Shown: one piece after another, positions 3,821 to 38,910 of the stretch
Layout: each line of letters starts with the position of its first letter
Numbering within the stretch: the stretch's first letter is position 1
Source: Minisyncoccota bacterium
Lineage (GTDB): Bacteria > Patescibacteriota > Minisyncoccia > JAHIHE01 > JAGLIN01
Assembly (NCBI GenBank): GCA_028690055.1
Contig: JAQVBZ010000016.1
Coordinates: forward strand, 1-41,359
Length of the DNA: 41,359 nt
Direction of reading: 5' to 3'
Notes under the pieces: generated by a model
The model's database searches: none
What the model saw: the letters and a program-made list of their open reading frames with translations, nothing else
Told to the model about the DNA's origin: nothing
Translations under genes and position numbers: made by a program

Positions 3821-4627
3821 TTAACTTTCTTTATCGAAGTTTATATCATCGAGAGAAAGTCTTTTCTTACTCTTGTCTTCGAATTCCACAGTAACTTGGC
3901 GCAACATAATATTCTTATCTGTGACGATACCTCGTTTATTGCCCCATTTCACCGCTTGTCGGTCATATGGAAAATTCTGCAGTTCTTTTCGATATTGCTC
4001 GGACTCAAAGCTCAGGCAGCAACGCAAACGGTCGCACAATCCTGAAAGCCGATCGCTCCCTCTCTGCCCCATCTGTTGTGTACGTGCGTCTTCTATGGTG
4101 ACACTTTGCAGCGCACCCGAAAAATTCATACAGCATAGCCTCCGTCCACATGCACCAAAGCCGCCCTTGCCCTTCGCTTCGTCACGAGACCCTATCTGCT
4201 GGAGACGGATCGAACGTTGGAATTGTTTGGAAAGATCCTTGACCAACTCACGGAAGTCCACTCTCTTTTCCGCGATGAAAGAAAAGGTCACCTTTCCTCC
4301 ATCGAAACTGAAATGCGCGTCCACGATTTTCATCGAGAGATTGCGCCTCTTTACCATGTCCCGGCAAGCCTTCACTGCAGCCGACTCTTTCTCTTTATTT
4401 CGTTCACATATTTCCAAATCCGAAGAATTTGCCTTACGGATGATATGGGCGGTTTCCTTGTCGTCCTGCGACTTCACGTTAATTTTCTGTACCAGGGCAC
4501 TGTCTATACCCGAATCGAAATTAACGATAACGATATCTCCCGCTTCGACTTTCCAGTTATTGGTATCAAACACACTCGCATCATCCCAGCTAAAAATTTT
4601 AGCACTAATATTCATAAGTGATCCCAT
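3821..4627 (-). CDS. PSP1-domain protein (RicT/YaaT-like)
   Basis: A 268-residue protein matching the PSP1 C-terminal domain family that includes Bacillus RicT (YaaT). The signature is strong: QIGSRDEAKGKGGFGACGRR with LCC close after it, then GLCDRLRCCLSFE. These conserved cysteines bind Fe-S clusters in the Ric proteins, where RicT takes part in an RNase Y-associated complex affecting mRNA maturation. Whether that holds here is inference, since no RicA or RicF partner is in the window. It sits between tsf (18 bp) and the TPR gene (19 bp), so it is co-transcribed with translation genes. An alternative start four codons in (4615, MNISAK) has GGGA upstream and may be the real one. Confidence 0.88.
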   Translation of the reverse strand: MGSLMNISAKIFSWDDASVFDTNNWKVEAGDIVIVNFDSGIDSALVQKINVKSQDDKETAHIIRKANSSDLEICERNKEKESAAVKACRDMVKRRNLSMKIVDAHFSFDGGKVTFSFIAEKRVDFRELVKDLSKQFQRSIRLQQIGSRDEAKGKGGFGACGRRLCCMNFSGALQSVTIEDARTQQMGQRGSDRLSGLCDRLRCCLSFESEQYRKELQNFPYDRQAVKWGNKRGIVTDKNIMLRQVTVEFEDKSKKRLSLDDINFDKES

Positions 4628-35559: not shown

Positions 35560-35788
35560 TGTCATACTGAGGTACTCCGAAGAACCCCGTTATATCCCAC
35601 ACAGAAATATTATTATTCTAAATATGGCAACTATAGAATCTGCCATATTTCCCAGATCCCTCATCCGAGTACGGCTTTCGGGATGACAAAGGGGTATATC
35701 GTACTGTTGTATTATATTGTATTGTATCGTATTGTATAGTATTGTTTTTCTCCCTCTCCCACCGGGAGAGGGTCGGAGTGAGGGGGAA
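35560..35788. repeat. TGTCAT...ATGACA repeat, ATTGT tract and CCCTCTCC hairpin
   Basis: 35560-35688 (129 bp) opens TGTCATACTGAGGTACTCCG and ends TTTCGGGATGACA. A low-complexity tract of ATTGT/ATCGT/ATAGT units follows at 35703-35745. 35750-35788 is CCCTCTCCCACCGGGAGAGG and GGTCGGAGTGAGGGGG. Together they fill most of the 408-bp gap; no gene seen. Confidence 0.6.
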
Positions 35789-35921: not shown

Positions 35922-36788
35922 CTAAATATCTTTACAATTTTCCAAAAATATCTTAGCAAACTCTTCCGCATTATTATACACAACCGAATGATTTGCTTCT
36001 TTGATGATAAAAAGATCCGAGCCCTCAATCATATCGCGCATCAACTCCCCGTCCGCCAGCGGAGTGGAATTATCGTTTTCCCCCCAAACCAAAAGTGCGG
36101 CTATGTGTATCTTTTCTAAGAAAGGAGTTAAATCTTCGGCAAGCGCATTTTTCATGACCTCTTTCATTCGAGGACTCGCACCGTCATAATCTTTCTCTCG
36201 AACCATCACATATAAAAATTTCTTGGCATATTTTTCCAAACCTTTCAAAAGAAGTACGCGAAAGACATTTTTACCAATCTTCGACAGACAGAAAAGGATC
36301 TGCTGCTTTTGTGTAAGCGGATGTTTTATTCCCGCCGCCCCGGTCAGTACGAGTTTCTCGATATCTTCAGGATATCTTACTGCATATTTAATCGCTATCC
36401 TGCCACCGAATGAATGTCCGAGTAAAACGATTCTCTTGTTATTCTTGCTAAAAGCTTGTCCATTATTCTGAATAGCCCCCTCAATTATATTTTTAACCAA
36501 CTGAAATCCCGTTTCTCTCTGTGCAACATTTTTCACGAACTCTCTGGCAAACTCGACATAATCATCGATATTCCAATCTTCTTGTGGTTCCTCGCTTTTC
36601 CCAAATCCGGGAAGATCGGGGATATAAAATTTGAAATCACTGTCACCTTTCAAAATTTCTTCCGCAGTCGCAACATATTTATCCGAAGAGACCCCCCATC
36701 CATGCAACAAAACCACCGGAGTTTTACCGCTCCCAATTATTTTGTAGTTTACCGCAAGCTCTTTGATTTTTGTCTGTTTTTCTTGCAT
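35922..36788 (-). CDS. Alpha/beta hydrolase
   Basis: A 288-residue soluble hydrolase of usual length for the fold. The oxyanion motif VVLLHGWGVSSDKY is near residue 25, the nucleophile elbow GHSFGG (Ser) at about 125, the acid in VWGENDNSTPL at about 238 and the catalytic His in EANHSVVYNN at about 270, so the triad is complete. IPDLPGFGKSEEP fits the lip of the fold. A cap of about 60 helical residues lies between. Substrates could be esters, lactones or similar; no sequence feature decides. It is a single gene flanked by repeats on both sides. Confidence 0.9.
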   Translation of the reverse strand: MQEKQTKIKELAVNYKIIGSGKTPVVLLHGWGVSSDKYVATAEEILKGDSDFKFYIPDLPGFGKSEEPQEDWNIDDYVEFAREFVKNVAQRETGFQLVKNIIEGAIQNNGQAFSKNNKRIVLLGHSFGGRIAIKYAVRYPEDIEKLVLTGAAGIKHPLTQKQQILFCLSKIGKNVFRVLLLKGLEKYAKKFLYVMVREKDYDGASPRMKEVMKNALAEDLTPFLEKIHIAALLVWGENDNSTPLADGELMRDMIEGSDLFIIKEANHSVVYNNAEEFAKIFLENCKDI

Positions 36789-36801: not shown

Positions 36802-36844
36802 TGTCATCTCGAAAGTCGTACTCGACCTGAGAGATCTATGAACT
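36802..36844 (+). repeat. Direct repeat left of GIY-YIG gene
   Basis: TGTCATCTCGAAAGTCGTAC then TCGACCTGAGAGATCTAT. About 85 percent identical to 37238-37276 in the same orientation. The GIY-YIG stop codon follows at once. Confidence 0.7.
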
Positions 36845-37222
36845 TTATTTATCTTCTCGCCCTTTATAATTAGCCCTAAACTCTTGAATAATTCCTTGAA
36901 TTTCCCTTTCGCCAACCCCCGAATCTTTAAATAACTTGATACTCAAATCATCGGAATTGGAATTTAAATTCCTTACCAACTCCATCTTCTTTTTCCTACT
37001 CCATTTCTTGATTTCTTTTTCTCTTTCCAGAGCACTATATACATTATCAGTTTGTTCAAAGTAAATAAGATATTTTAGTTGATATCTTGTCGTAAATTTA
37101 CAACCTAGACCATTTTTATACTCTATCATCCTTCTAAGAAGATTATTCGTAAATCCCACATAATAAACGGTTTTGAGATAATTGGTCAAGATATAAGCAT
37201 GGAAATGATATTCTTTCTGCAA
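36845..37222 (-). CDS. GIY-YIG nuclease, single domain
   Basis: A 125-residue protein of the UPF0213-type GIY-YIG group. The domain fills most of the chain: AYILTNYLKTVYYVGFTNNL (the GIY/YIG equivalents AYI and YVG), RRMIEYKNG (catalytic Arg region), LIYFEQTDNVYSALEREKEI with KKWSRKKKMELV (catalytic Glu region). The C-terminal ~25 residues (DSGVGEREIQGIIQEF) are extra. It lies exactly between two related 40-bp direct repeats (36802 and 37238), and a TGTCAT...ATGACA element is next door. Relatives include homing endonucleases and repair nucleases. The layout suggests a small mobile unit. Confidence 0.88.
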   Translation of the reverse strand: MQKEYHFHAYILTNYLKTVYYVGFTNNLLRRMIEYKNGLGCKFTTRYQLKYLIYFEQTDNVYSALEREKEIKKWSRKKKMELVRNLNSNSDDLSIKLFKDSGVGEREIQGIIQEFRANYKGREDK

Positions 37223-37237
37223 AGGGTTACCTTATTT

Positions 37238-37276
37238 TGTCATCTCGAAGAAGTACTCGACTGAGAGATCTATAGA
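37238..37276 (+). repeat. Direct repeat right of GIY-YIG gene
   Basis: TGTCATCTCGAAGAAGTACT then CGACTGAGAGATCTATAGAC. Pairs with 36802-36844. A third, weaker copy (CGAAGCTCGTACTCGACTG) is at about 38706. Confidence 0.7.
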
Positions 37277-37295
37277 CTGTCTAAACATCCTAAAA

Positions 37296-37376
37296 TGTCA
37301 TGCTAAGGTATATTATATCCCCCAGTAATAATATTCACAGATTTCTCTCTCCGCTATCGCTACATTCGAAATGACA
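37296..37376. repeat. Short TGTCAT...ATGACA repeat
   Basis: An 81-bp element beginning TGTCATGCTAAGG and ending ATTCGAAATGACA. It fills the gap between the GIY-YIG gene and serS. Confidence 0.55.
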
Positions 37377-37396: not shown

Positions 37397-38647
37397 TTAC
37401 CCAATTCTATCTTTCCCAAAAATAGGCCTCAACACTTCCGGAATGATCACACTGCCGTCTTCTTGCTGATAGTTTTCCAAAATAGCGATCAGCGGCCTGT
37501 CTGAAGTTCCGGTGTTATTTATCGTATGTACGAATTGCTTCTTGCCTTGATCATCCGTATAACGGCAATTGAGCCTTCTTGCCTGAAAATCCGTATCGTT
37601 ACTGCAAGAATTGGTCTCACGGAATCTGTCCTGTCCCGGCAACCAAGCTTCGATGTCATATTTCTTGGCATTCGGTGCGCCGATATCCCCCGAACACATA
37701 TTGAGCACCTGGTAGCAAAGCCCCAGCGACTGCAAAAATTCCTCTGCGTATGCCAGAAGTTTCTCGTGCCATTGCCAAGATTCCTCCGATTTGCAGAAAA
37801 CAAACATCTCAATCTTATTGAATTGATGTCCACGGAGAATTCCTTTCATATCTTTTCCATAAGTCCCCGCCTCACGCCTGAAACAGCTGGAATACCCCAT
37901 ATATTTTTTCGGTCCATCGCTAAAATCCAGATTTTCATTCATGTGATATGCCGCCAAGGCTACTTCTGCAGTCCCCACCAAAAACAAATTATCGTCGTCG
38001 GGATTGACCCGATAAATCTCGTTTTCGTCCGCCGGGAAAAATCCCGTGCCGTACATCGCCTCTTCGCGCACCAGCATCGGCACAATCATCGGAACCAAAC
38101 CCTTATTCGCATAAAAATTAAAAGCATATTGCATCAGCGCGAATTCCAGTCTTGCCAAATCGCCCCTCAGGTACCAGAATCTCGACCCCGAAACCTTGGC
38201 TCCTCGTTCGCTGTCGATCAAATCTTTCACACTCTCGATATCGAAATGTTCTTTCGGTTGAAAATCAAATTTCGGTTTTTCCCCGACAGTTCTTACTACC
38301 ACATTGCCCGACTCATCCGGACCGATCGGCACACTCTCATGTGTGATATTGGGGAGCGCCAAAAGTATCGCTTTGGTTTTTTCTTCCAAATCCTTAAGTT
38401 CCGGTTCCATTTCACCGATAGCAGCTTTTATCTTCTGCATTTCTGCAATCAATTCCTCGTTCCTGCCGGTTTTCATTTTATCGCTGGCTTCATTTTGTTG
38501 CTGGCGCAAAGCTTCGACTTTCTGCGTCAATCCTCGCTTTTTCTCATCCAAAGACAAAAAGGAATCCAAATCGATTTTCATATTCCGTCTTTTGATTTCC
38601 TCCTTAACCCTCTCAGGGTTTTCTCTTATGAATTTTGTATCCAACAT
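37397..38647 (-). CDS. serS: Seryl-tRNA synthetase
   Basis: A class II synthetase that charges tRNA-Ser. At 416 residues it is full length. The N-terminal tRNA-binding coiled coil spans about 30-105 (EKKRGLTQKVEALRQQQNEA). Motif 2 is CFRREAGTYGKDMKGILRGH (ATP-binding Arg in FRRE), followed by QFNKIEMFVF. Motif 3 is NNTGTSDRPLIAILENYQQE, with its Arg at PEVLRPI downstream. TAEVALAAYH and the serine-pocket FRETNSCSNDTDFQARR are present. The start MLDTKFIRENPERVKEEIKR is canonical. Single gene between repeat-filled gaps. Confidence 0.98.
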   Translation of the reverse strand: MLDTKFIRENPERVKEEIKRRNMKIDLDSFLSLDEKKRGLTQKVEALRQQQNEASDKMKTGRNEELIAEMQKIKAAIGEMEPELKDLEEKTKAILLALPNITHESVPIGPDESGNVVVRTVGEKPKFDFQPKEHFDIESVKDLIDSERGAKVSGSRFWYLRGDLARLEFALMQYAFNFYANKGLVPMIVPMLVREEAMYGTGFFPADENEIYRVNPDDDNLFLVGTAEVALAAYHMNENLDFSDGPKKYMGYSSCFRREAGTYGKDMKGILRGHQFNKIEMFVFCKSEESWQWHEKLLAYAEEFLQSLGLCYQVLNMCSGDIGAPNAKKYDIEAWLPGQDRFRETNSCSNDTDFQARRLNCRYTDDQGKKQFVHTINNTGTSDRPLIAILENYQQEDGSVIIPEVLRPIFGKDRIG

Positions 38648-38696: not shown

Positions 38697-38910
38697 TGTT
38701 ATTACGAAGCTCGTACTCGACTGCAAAATCTGTAAAATGCCCGAAACTCTGCAACGGTTATCCCTAAAAAACTTTATTGCTGTGTGTTATTTTCCCCAGA
38801 TTCCTCAATCGCAGTAGCTCATTTCGGAATGACAAATAAATAGTTTTTTACGATAATCGTGCACAATCTCGTCCCCTCTCCCATCCAGAGAGGGTCAGGG
38901 TGAGGGGGAA
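38697..38910. repeat. TGTCAT-class repeat plus CCCTCTCC hairpin
   Basis: 38697-38834 begins TTATTACGAAGCTCGTACTC (left end diverged) and ends CATTTCGGAATGACA, with CCAGATTCCTC before the end. 38871-38910 is CCCCTCTCCCATCCAGAGAG and GGTCAGGGTGAGGGGG. Together they fill the serS-lysS gap. Confidence 0.55.

Follow-up and report, generated by a model that had tools for sequence, protein, structure and literature searches.

Why should a small nuclease gene lie exactly between copies of an intergenic repeat, and has the enzyme a part in the spread of that repeat? The question arises from a GIY-YIG gene in the window analysed here (the whole 41,359-nt stretch, contig JAQVBZ010000016.1 of a Minisyncoccota bacterium, assembly GCA_028690055.1). 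An earlier note on this DNA had described two direct repeats, about 85% identical, starting at 36802 and 37238, the first ending at the gene's stop codon. Both statements are borne out: the pairwise alignment of 36802-36844 with 37238-37278 has 37 identical columns of 43 (86%) and two 1-nt gaps, the first repeat abuts the stop codon (36845-36847, minus strand), and the second sits 16 nt from the TTG start at 37222. The two repeats are hairpin ends of a family of inverted-repeat elements of about 140 bp (REPIN/MITE-like). An inverted arm at 37376-37339 (minus strand) completes the 139-bp element that begins at 37238, one of 13 strict inverted pairs in the genome. Read along the GIY-YIG gene, the order is complete element, gene, lone left end, and the repeats are direct here only because the gene has a complete element upstream and a single end downstream. 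Bracketing by direct repeats is therefore true of the window copy but not of the general unit, which has inverted ends (hairpin> gene <hairpin) and short gene-less relatives. The third partial copy placed near 38706 does exist; it belongs to a complete 138-bp element, whose left end, starting at 38697, has decayed. A second intergenic repeat class, CCCTCTCCC...GAGAGGGTC.G.GTGAGGGGGAA, has copies 86% identical at 35752-35788 and 38874-38910 that flank the region.

Table 1. Features of the window around the GIY-YIG gene
Feature	Position	Strand	Evidence or remark
TGTCAT hairpin end of another subtype (CTGAGG..GAAG), like the ends beside the GIY-YIG gene at G000:C17	30278..30305	-	pattern match
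Further left-type hairpin end, on the far side of the hydrolase gene	35654..35688	-	pattern match, DNA fold
Alpha/beta hydrolase gene, one neighbour of the insertion	35922..36788	-	adjoins serS without the unit in six relatives
Lone left-type hairpin end, right after the GIY-YIG stop codon	36802..36844	+	sequence, alignment with 37238, DNA fold stem, pattern match
Free-standing Ssn-type GIY-YIG nuclease gene, 125 aa, TTG start	36845..37222	-	Pfam PF01541, E 6e-11
Complete 139-bp inverted-repeat element, upstream of the GIY-YIG gene	37238..37376	.	left end 37238-37278 (+), right end 37376-37339 (-); pattern matches
serS, other neighbour of the insertion	37397..38647	-	
138-bp element upstream of serS, complete but with its left end decayed	38697..38834	.	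sequence, pattern matches, pairing

The repeat ends are not a product of chance, since a strict end pattern has 60 matches in the 1.46-Mb genome, 30 per strand, and none when the same pattern is read backwards, and since the subtype of the window, with 33 ends in this genome, is nearly absent from relatives (two ends in the nearest, G014, the remaining 16 genomes of the order being without any). All 13 pairs in which both ends are strict measure 138-143 bp. A short, uniform length and terminal inverted repeats that a gene-bearing element has too (the 13 pairs here; G058 against G190 at site Z, below) are the make-up of a MITE, and the inverted doublets of hairpin-forming repeats, intergenic and in many copies, are that of a REPIN. 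Among 19 distinct left ends, 95% of stem cells are paired, with a covariation score of 0.33 against 0.14 when shuffled and at most 0.11 when slid; stems hold 19 double changes where shuffles give 5.8, and sliding the partner abolishes the covariation. No variation occurs in these ends at TGTCAT, the inner GA steps or ATCT. Folding energies of the single hairpins of the window copies (DNA fold) are not distinctive, so the hairpin structure rests on covariation.

The gene belongs to a small free-standing GIY-YIG type that we take to be Ssn (site-specific single-stranded nucleases). Its protein retains every residue that does not vary in alignment A3, including Y10, Y21, G23, R31, E68 and N87, has Y in place of the nearly invariant H35, and carries a C-terminal extension of two helices. 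The AlphaFold model has a mean pLDDT of 92.8, and its best Foldseek matches are UPF0213 (1zg2), Slx1 and the UvrC N-domain, the best E-value being only 1.7e-3. The Pfam hit, the alignment, the model and Foldseek agree on a GIY-YIG domain with the conserved Y, Y, R and E, apart from the change of H35 to Y; as in Ssn, the protein is small and free-standing and has a cognate repeat in its genome. Nuclease activity is possible, if not assured, because the A3-invariant residues are kept and UvrC also has Y at the H35 position. Judged by its TTG start, H35Y and degenerate left hairpin the window copy may be decaying; a dN/dS of about 0.15 against its truncated paralogue L007 (52 codons only) speaks against decay.

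Seven genes with PF01541 are found in the genome: one uvrC, one YhbQ-like gene and five of the Ssn type, including the window gene and L007. All five sit amid TGTCAT hairpins, each with a different subtype, and neither uvrC nor the YhbQ-like gene is bracketed by hairpins. Bracketing as a generic GIY-YIG trait was rejected, none of the few uvrC, three YhbQ-like and eight GS-type genes examined being bracketed.

The pairing of gene and hairpin is far more general than the window locus and extends over many bacterial phyla. Homologues were gathered by protein alone from the same order, the same phylum and 80 loci of a public genome collection (Patescibacteria, Acidobacteria, Chloroflexi, Bacteroidetes, Proteobacteria, Firmicutes, Nitrospirae and others), which gave 138 Ssn-type genes with two usable flanks. 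Because the repeats are intergenic, 261 other genes from the same loci served as controls. A TGTCAT-type hairpin lies within 150 bp of 119 of the 138 Ssn-type genes and of 50 of the 261 others (p 4e-40), and the 'hairpin> gene <hairpin' layout is found at 67 and 4, respectively (p 6e-32); both p-values treat genes as independent and overstate the number of events, since related genes are not. The effect is still large and spans phyla, and hairpin orientation is biased on both sides of the 138 genes. Some 14% of Ssn-type genes have no such hairpin nearby. Hairpin density is 7-9 per kb less than 100 bp from the gene and 0.26 per kb beyond 1 kb, and TGTCAT/CGTCAT sites have a complementary partner in 69% of cases near the gene against 18% far off. 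Where other open reading frames stand between hairpins, they are ordinary genes, and in most cases the ends do not match. Chance or mere intergenic enrichment was rejected, as hairpins are much scarcer beside control genes from these loci, and the inverted layout is hardly ever seen there.

Protein type and hairpin type are matched. Protein similarity predicts hairpin similarity with a rho of 0.21 (permutation sd 0.046, maximum of 500 permutations 0.128), and similarity is also high between the two hairpins of a single gene (0.54 against 0.20). At the level of genomes, counted regardless of phylogeny, the CTTG-subtype repeat occurs in 50 of 287 Patescibacteria; 40 of these 50 have an Ssn-type gene, compared with 37 of the 237 without the repeat (odds ratio 22). 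Two outcomes named beforehand as damaging to the idea, homologues in relatives lacking the flanks and repeats occurring irrespective of the gene, thus did not come about: most homologues carry the flanks, and the repeats go with the gene. As with RAYTs, multi-copy transposition of the gene-bearing unit is rare, most genomes having just one or a few Ssn genes of each subtype. Two identical Ssn-type proteins are encoded 4.4 kb apart on one contig at L183 (G190:C21), a recent duplication or an assembly effect. At L075 (G134:C3) the Ssn-type reading frame extends into the downstream hairpins, which adds a repeat-encoded tail to the protein.

The earlier note had advised a search for empty sites, and these were found in comparisons of orthologous sites in draft genomes. 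At the window site serS and the hydrolase gene adjoin in six relatives (G014, G012, G013, G001, G003 and G015), and the space between the two holds neither a GIY-YIG gene nor a hairpin pair; G014 shows degenerate GTCAT bits there and nothing more. Site W holds the inverted unit ('> gene <') in G190 and G230 and, at the same place, a different Ssn gene with different hairpins in G058; it is clean in G201, G090 and G221, where there is no repeat. Several relatives have no hairpin pair at site X. At site Z the unit is present in G190, the same hairpins without the gene are in G058, G133 has a pair of another type, and G201 is clean. At a further site, on contig C40 of G190, the congener G230 has other hairpins and no gene in place of the unit, between flanks 91-94% identical. 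At the comEC site G090 has the unit, and G190 a gene-less hairpin pair whose left hairpin is homologous.

Orthologous sites are thus filled, gene-less or empty, and the gene with its brackets is gained and lost like a single unit. Hairpin-gene-hairpin is accordingly a mobile unit, of which the elements of about 140 bp appear to be gene-less relatives. Some of this turnover could be due to homologous recombination alone, since what occupies a given intergenic site is exchanged between congeners. At the compared sites we saw neither a target-site duplication nor an excision product, and divergence of the flanks kept exact junctions from being placed. Stretches of G190 and G230 (91% identity), compared pairwise, showed presence and absence, again without target duplication. 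Two observations stand beside these comparisons. In L223 (G133:C40, about 570-1090) site W holds a different small open reading frame between inverted CCTACCAAT..GTACCAATC / GATTGGTAC..ATTGGTAGG ends; its product resembles GxxExxY/PDDEXK-type proteins, and it may be a further nuclease gene with terminal hairpins of its own. The unit of G090 lies directly upstream of the apparent comEC, a DNA-uptake channel gene (L191, about 3980-4400, G090:C2), an adjacency that may be due to chance or may bear on a role in transformation.

Association, hairpin structure, the matching of protein type to hairpin type, and the gain or loss of whole units at orthologous sites are direct results. The object recognised would be the covarying hairpin, which forms best in single strands and stands inverted at both ends of the gene; the simplest reading is therefore that the unit is mobile and that its nuclease works on the unit's ends. 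We put at roughly 60% the probability that the locus is a somewhat rearranged hairpin-ended mobile element, that the 140-bp pairs are its gene-less relatives, and that the Ssn-type nuclease moves the unit through hairpins of its own subtype. The full element would consist of a TGTCAT hairpin, an Ssn-type GIY-YIG gene and the same hairpin inverted, and the scattered pairs would be MITE/REPIN-like derivatives without the gene. Most likely the nuclease would recognise its own-subtype hairpin as folded single-stranded DNA, on the lagging strand or in DNA from transformation, and would cut at or beside the TGTCAT foot; the cut would free the unit or prime its copying, and the unit would enter new intergenic places by replication or recombination. 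Single-strand cutting, the position of the cut and cutting as the cause of movement are steps that we infer. The mode may resemble that of IS200/RAYT and REPINs (PMC3116915), with another chemistry.

How the repeats and the nuclease came together can be read in other ways. Ssn of Neisseria reportedly cuts incoming single-stranded DNA at the NTS repeat and has a role in natural transformation. The present enzymes could likewise be cellular, shaping transformation by cutting incoming DNA at the repeat, with the repeats as recognition marks spread by recombination and no transposon involved. The matching of proteins to hairpins fits this equally well, and the unit upstream of the apparent comEC in G090 points the same way; by itself, however, it leaves unexplained the inverted cognate hairpins around the gene (67 of 138), the joint arrival of gene and hairpins at otherwise clean sites, and the uniform length of the gene-less elements, and we consider it rather unlikely. 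A transformation role is compatible with a mobile unit, and may even be a route of units between cells. The homing-like system proposed in the earlier note, in which the nuclease cuts existing repeats and repair copies the gene into them, is partly right, and a candidate recognition repeat does stand at the empty allele of site Z, where G058 has the hairpins of G190 without the gene, and at the comEC site, where the gene-less pair of G190 has a left hairpin homologous to that of the unit in G090. Loss of the gene from a full unit explains site Z equally well, and no prior repeat was needed for landing at the window site and sites W and X, where several relatives have no hairpin pair. Empty sites without a repeat (serS-hydrolase; G201, G090 and G221 at site W) fit insertion of a whole unit better than homing into an existing repeat, and we hold homing to be improbable.

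The repeats might also be moved by RAYT-type (Y1) transposases, the GIY-YIG genes being passengers or chance neighbours. Inverted hairpin doublets, intergenic and in many copies, are the REPIN layout (PMC3116915), and the genome has three Y1_Tnp genes. None of the three is bracketed by hairpin pairs of the TGTCAT class, whereas the association with GIY-YIG genes is far above that with other genes, and the gene adjacent to the repeats is a GIY-YIG gene and not a Y1 (HUH) transposase. RAYTs were accordingly rejected as mobilisers of the TGTCAT repeats, the Y1_Tnp genes here carrying other repeats; we hold this reading to be very improbable. Two Y1_Tnp genes lie amid repeats of their own (GGTTTTAACCTGCGCGGTTGTCC arrays; AAGGACAGTCCTT hairpins), and an IS200-like hairpin accompanies the third (L040 G000:C24, L039 G000:C29, L038 G000:C25), so the genome holds several independent repeat-enzyme systems.

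Returning to the mobile unit with its own nuclease, gene and repeats come and go as one unit across many phyla, which suggests the Ssn-type enzyme as the driver of the spread of common, poorly understood hairpin repeats. TGTCAT-type hairpins recur in intergenic DNA of many phyla, and one nuclease family of matched specificity is a testable cause. Should the unit be moved by its nuclease, GIY-YIG would join the short list of DNA transposon chemistries, and a flanking hairpin would predict the specificity of its nuclease, a help in picking single-strand cutters. More tentatively, and at less than even odds, hairpin-ended DNA elements mobilised by Ssn-type nucleases could form a new class that parallels IS200/RAYT with GIY-YIG enzymes, and the very common TGTCAT/dRS3-type intergenic repeats found across bacteria could stem from these nucleases.

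The locus had been singled out as possibly something undescribed, which holds in part. A 2025 report (Nature Communications, Veyrier group) is said to describe Ssn nucleases of the GIY-YIG superfamily that recognise genomic repeats, among them Neisseria Ssn with the NTS repeat, and Ssn homologues are reportedly many, with different specificities. Our literature searches, whose scope did not include that paper, returned no description of GIY-YIG genes paired with REP, MITE, dRS3 or the present repeat sequences. Like Ssn, the present protein is small, free-standing and of the GIY-YIG superfamily, and is associated with a sequence repeated in its own genome; what is shown here is a gene enclosed by inverted cognate hairpins and gained or lost together with them. 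Should the Ssn paper already report both the bracketing and the empty sites, their novelty falls.

NIMEs of Neisseria, with dRS3, are short inverted repeats and 30-160 bp units, intergenic and in many copies, with the terminal repeat pattern ATTCCC(N8)GGGAAT (PMC3898611). This pattern fits the stem of the GTCATTCCCGCG..CGGGAATCC hairpins that flank Ssn-type genes in other phyla (e.g. L129, L177); the window subtype departs from it, with a stem ATCTCGAA..GAGAT and a loop GTACTC. Free-standing GIY-YIG homing endonucleases are alike in fold, and possibly in being selfish genes at intergenic sites, but the target here is apparently the gene's own terminal hairpins, which several empty sites lack. 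UPF0213 (1zg2, 1ywl), the UvrC N-domain and Slx1 share the fold and catalytic residues of the window protein; the UvrC and YhbQ-like genes of this genome, unlike the Ssn-type genes, are without matched hairpins around them. REPINs are inverted hairpin doublets, non-autonomous and tied to a nearby low-copy RAYT gene, gene and repeat co-diverging (PMC3116915), and the window system is like them in each of these respects, with a GIY-YIG nuclease in the place of the Y1 HUH transposase.
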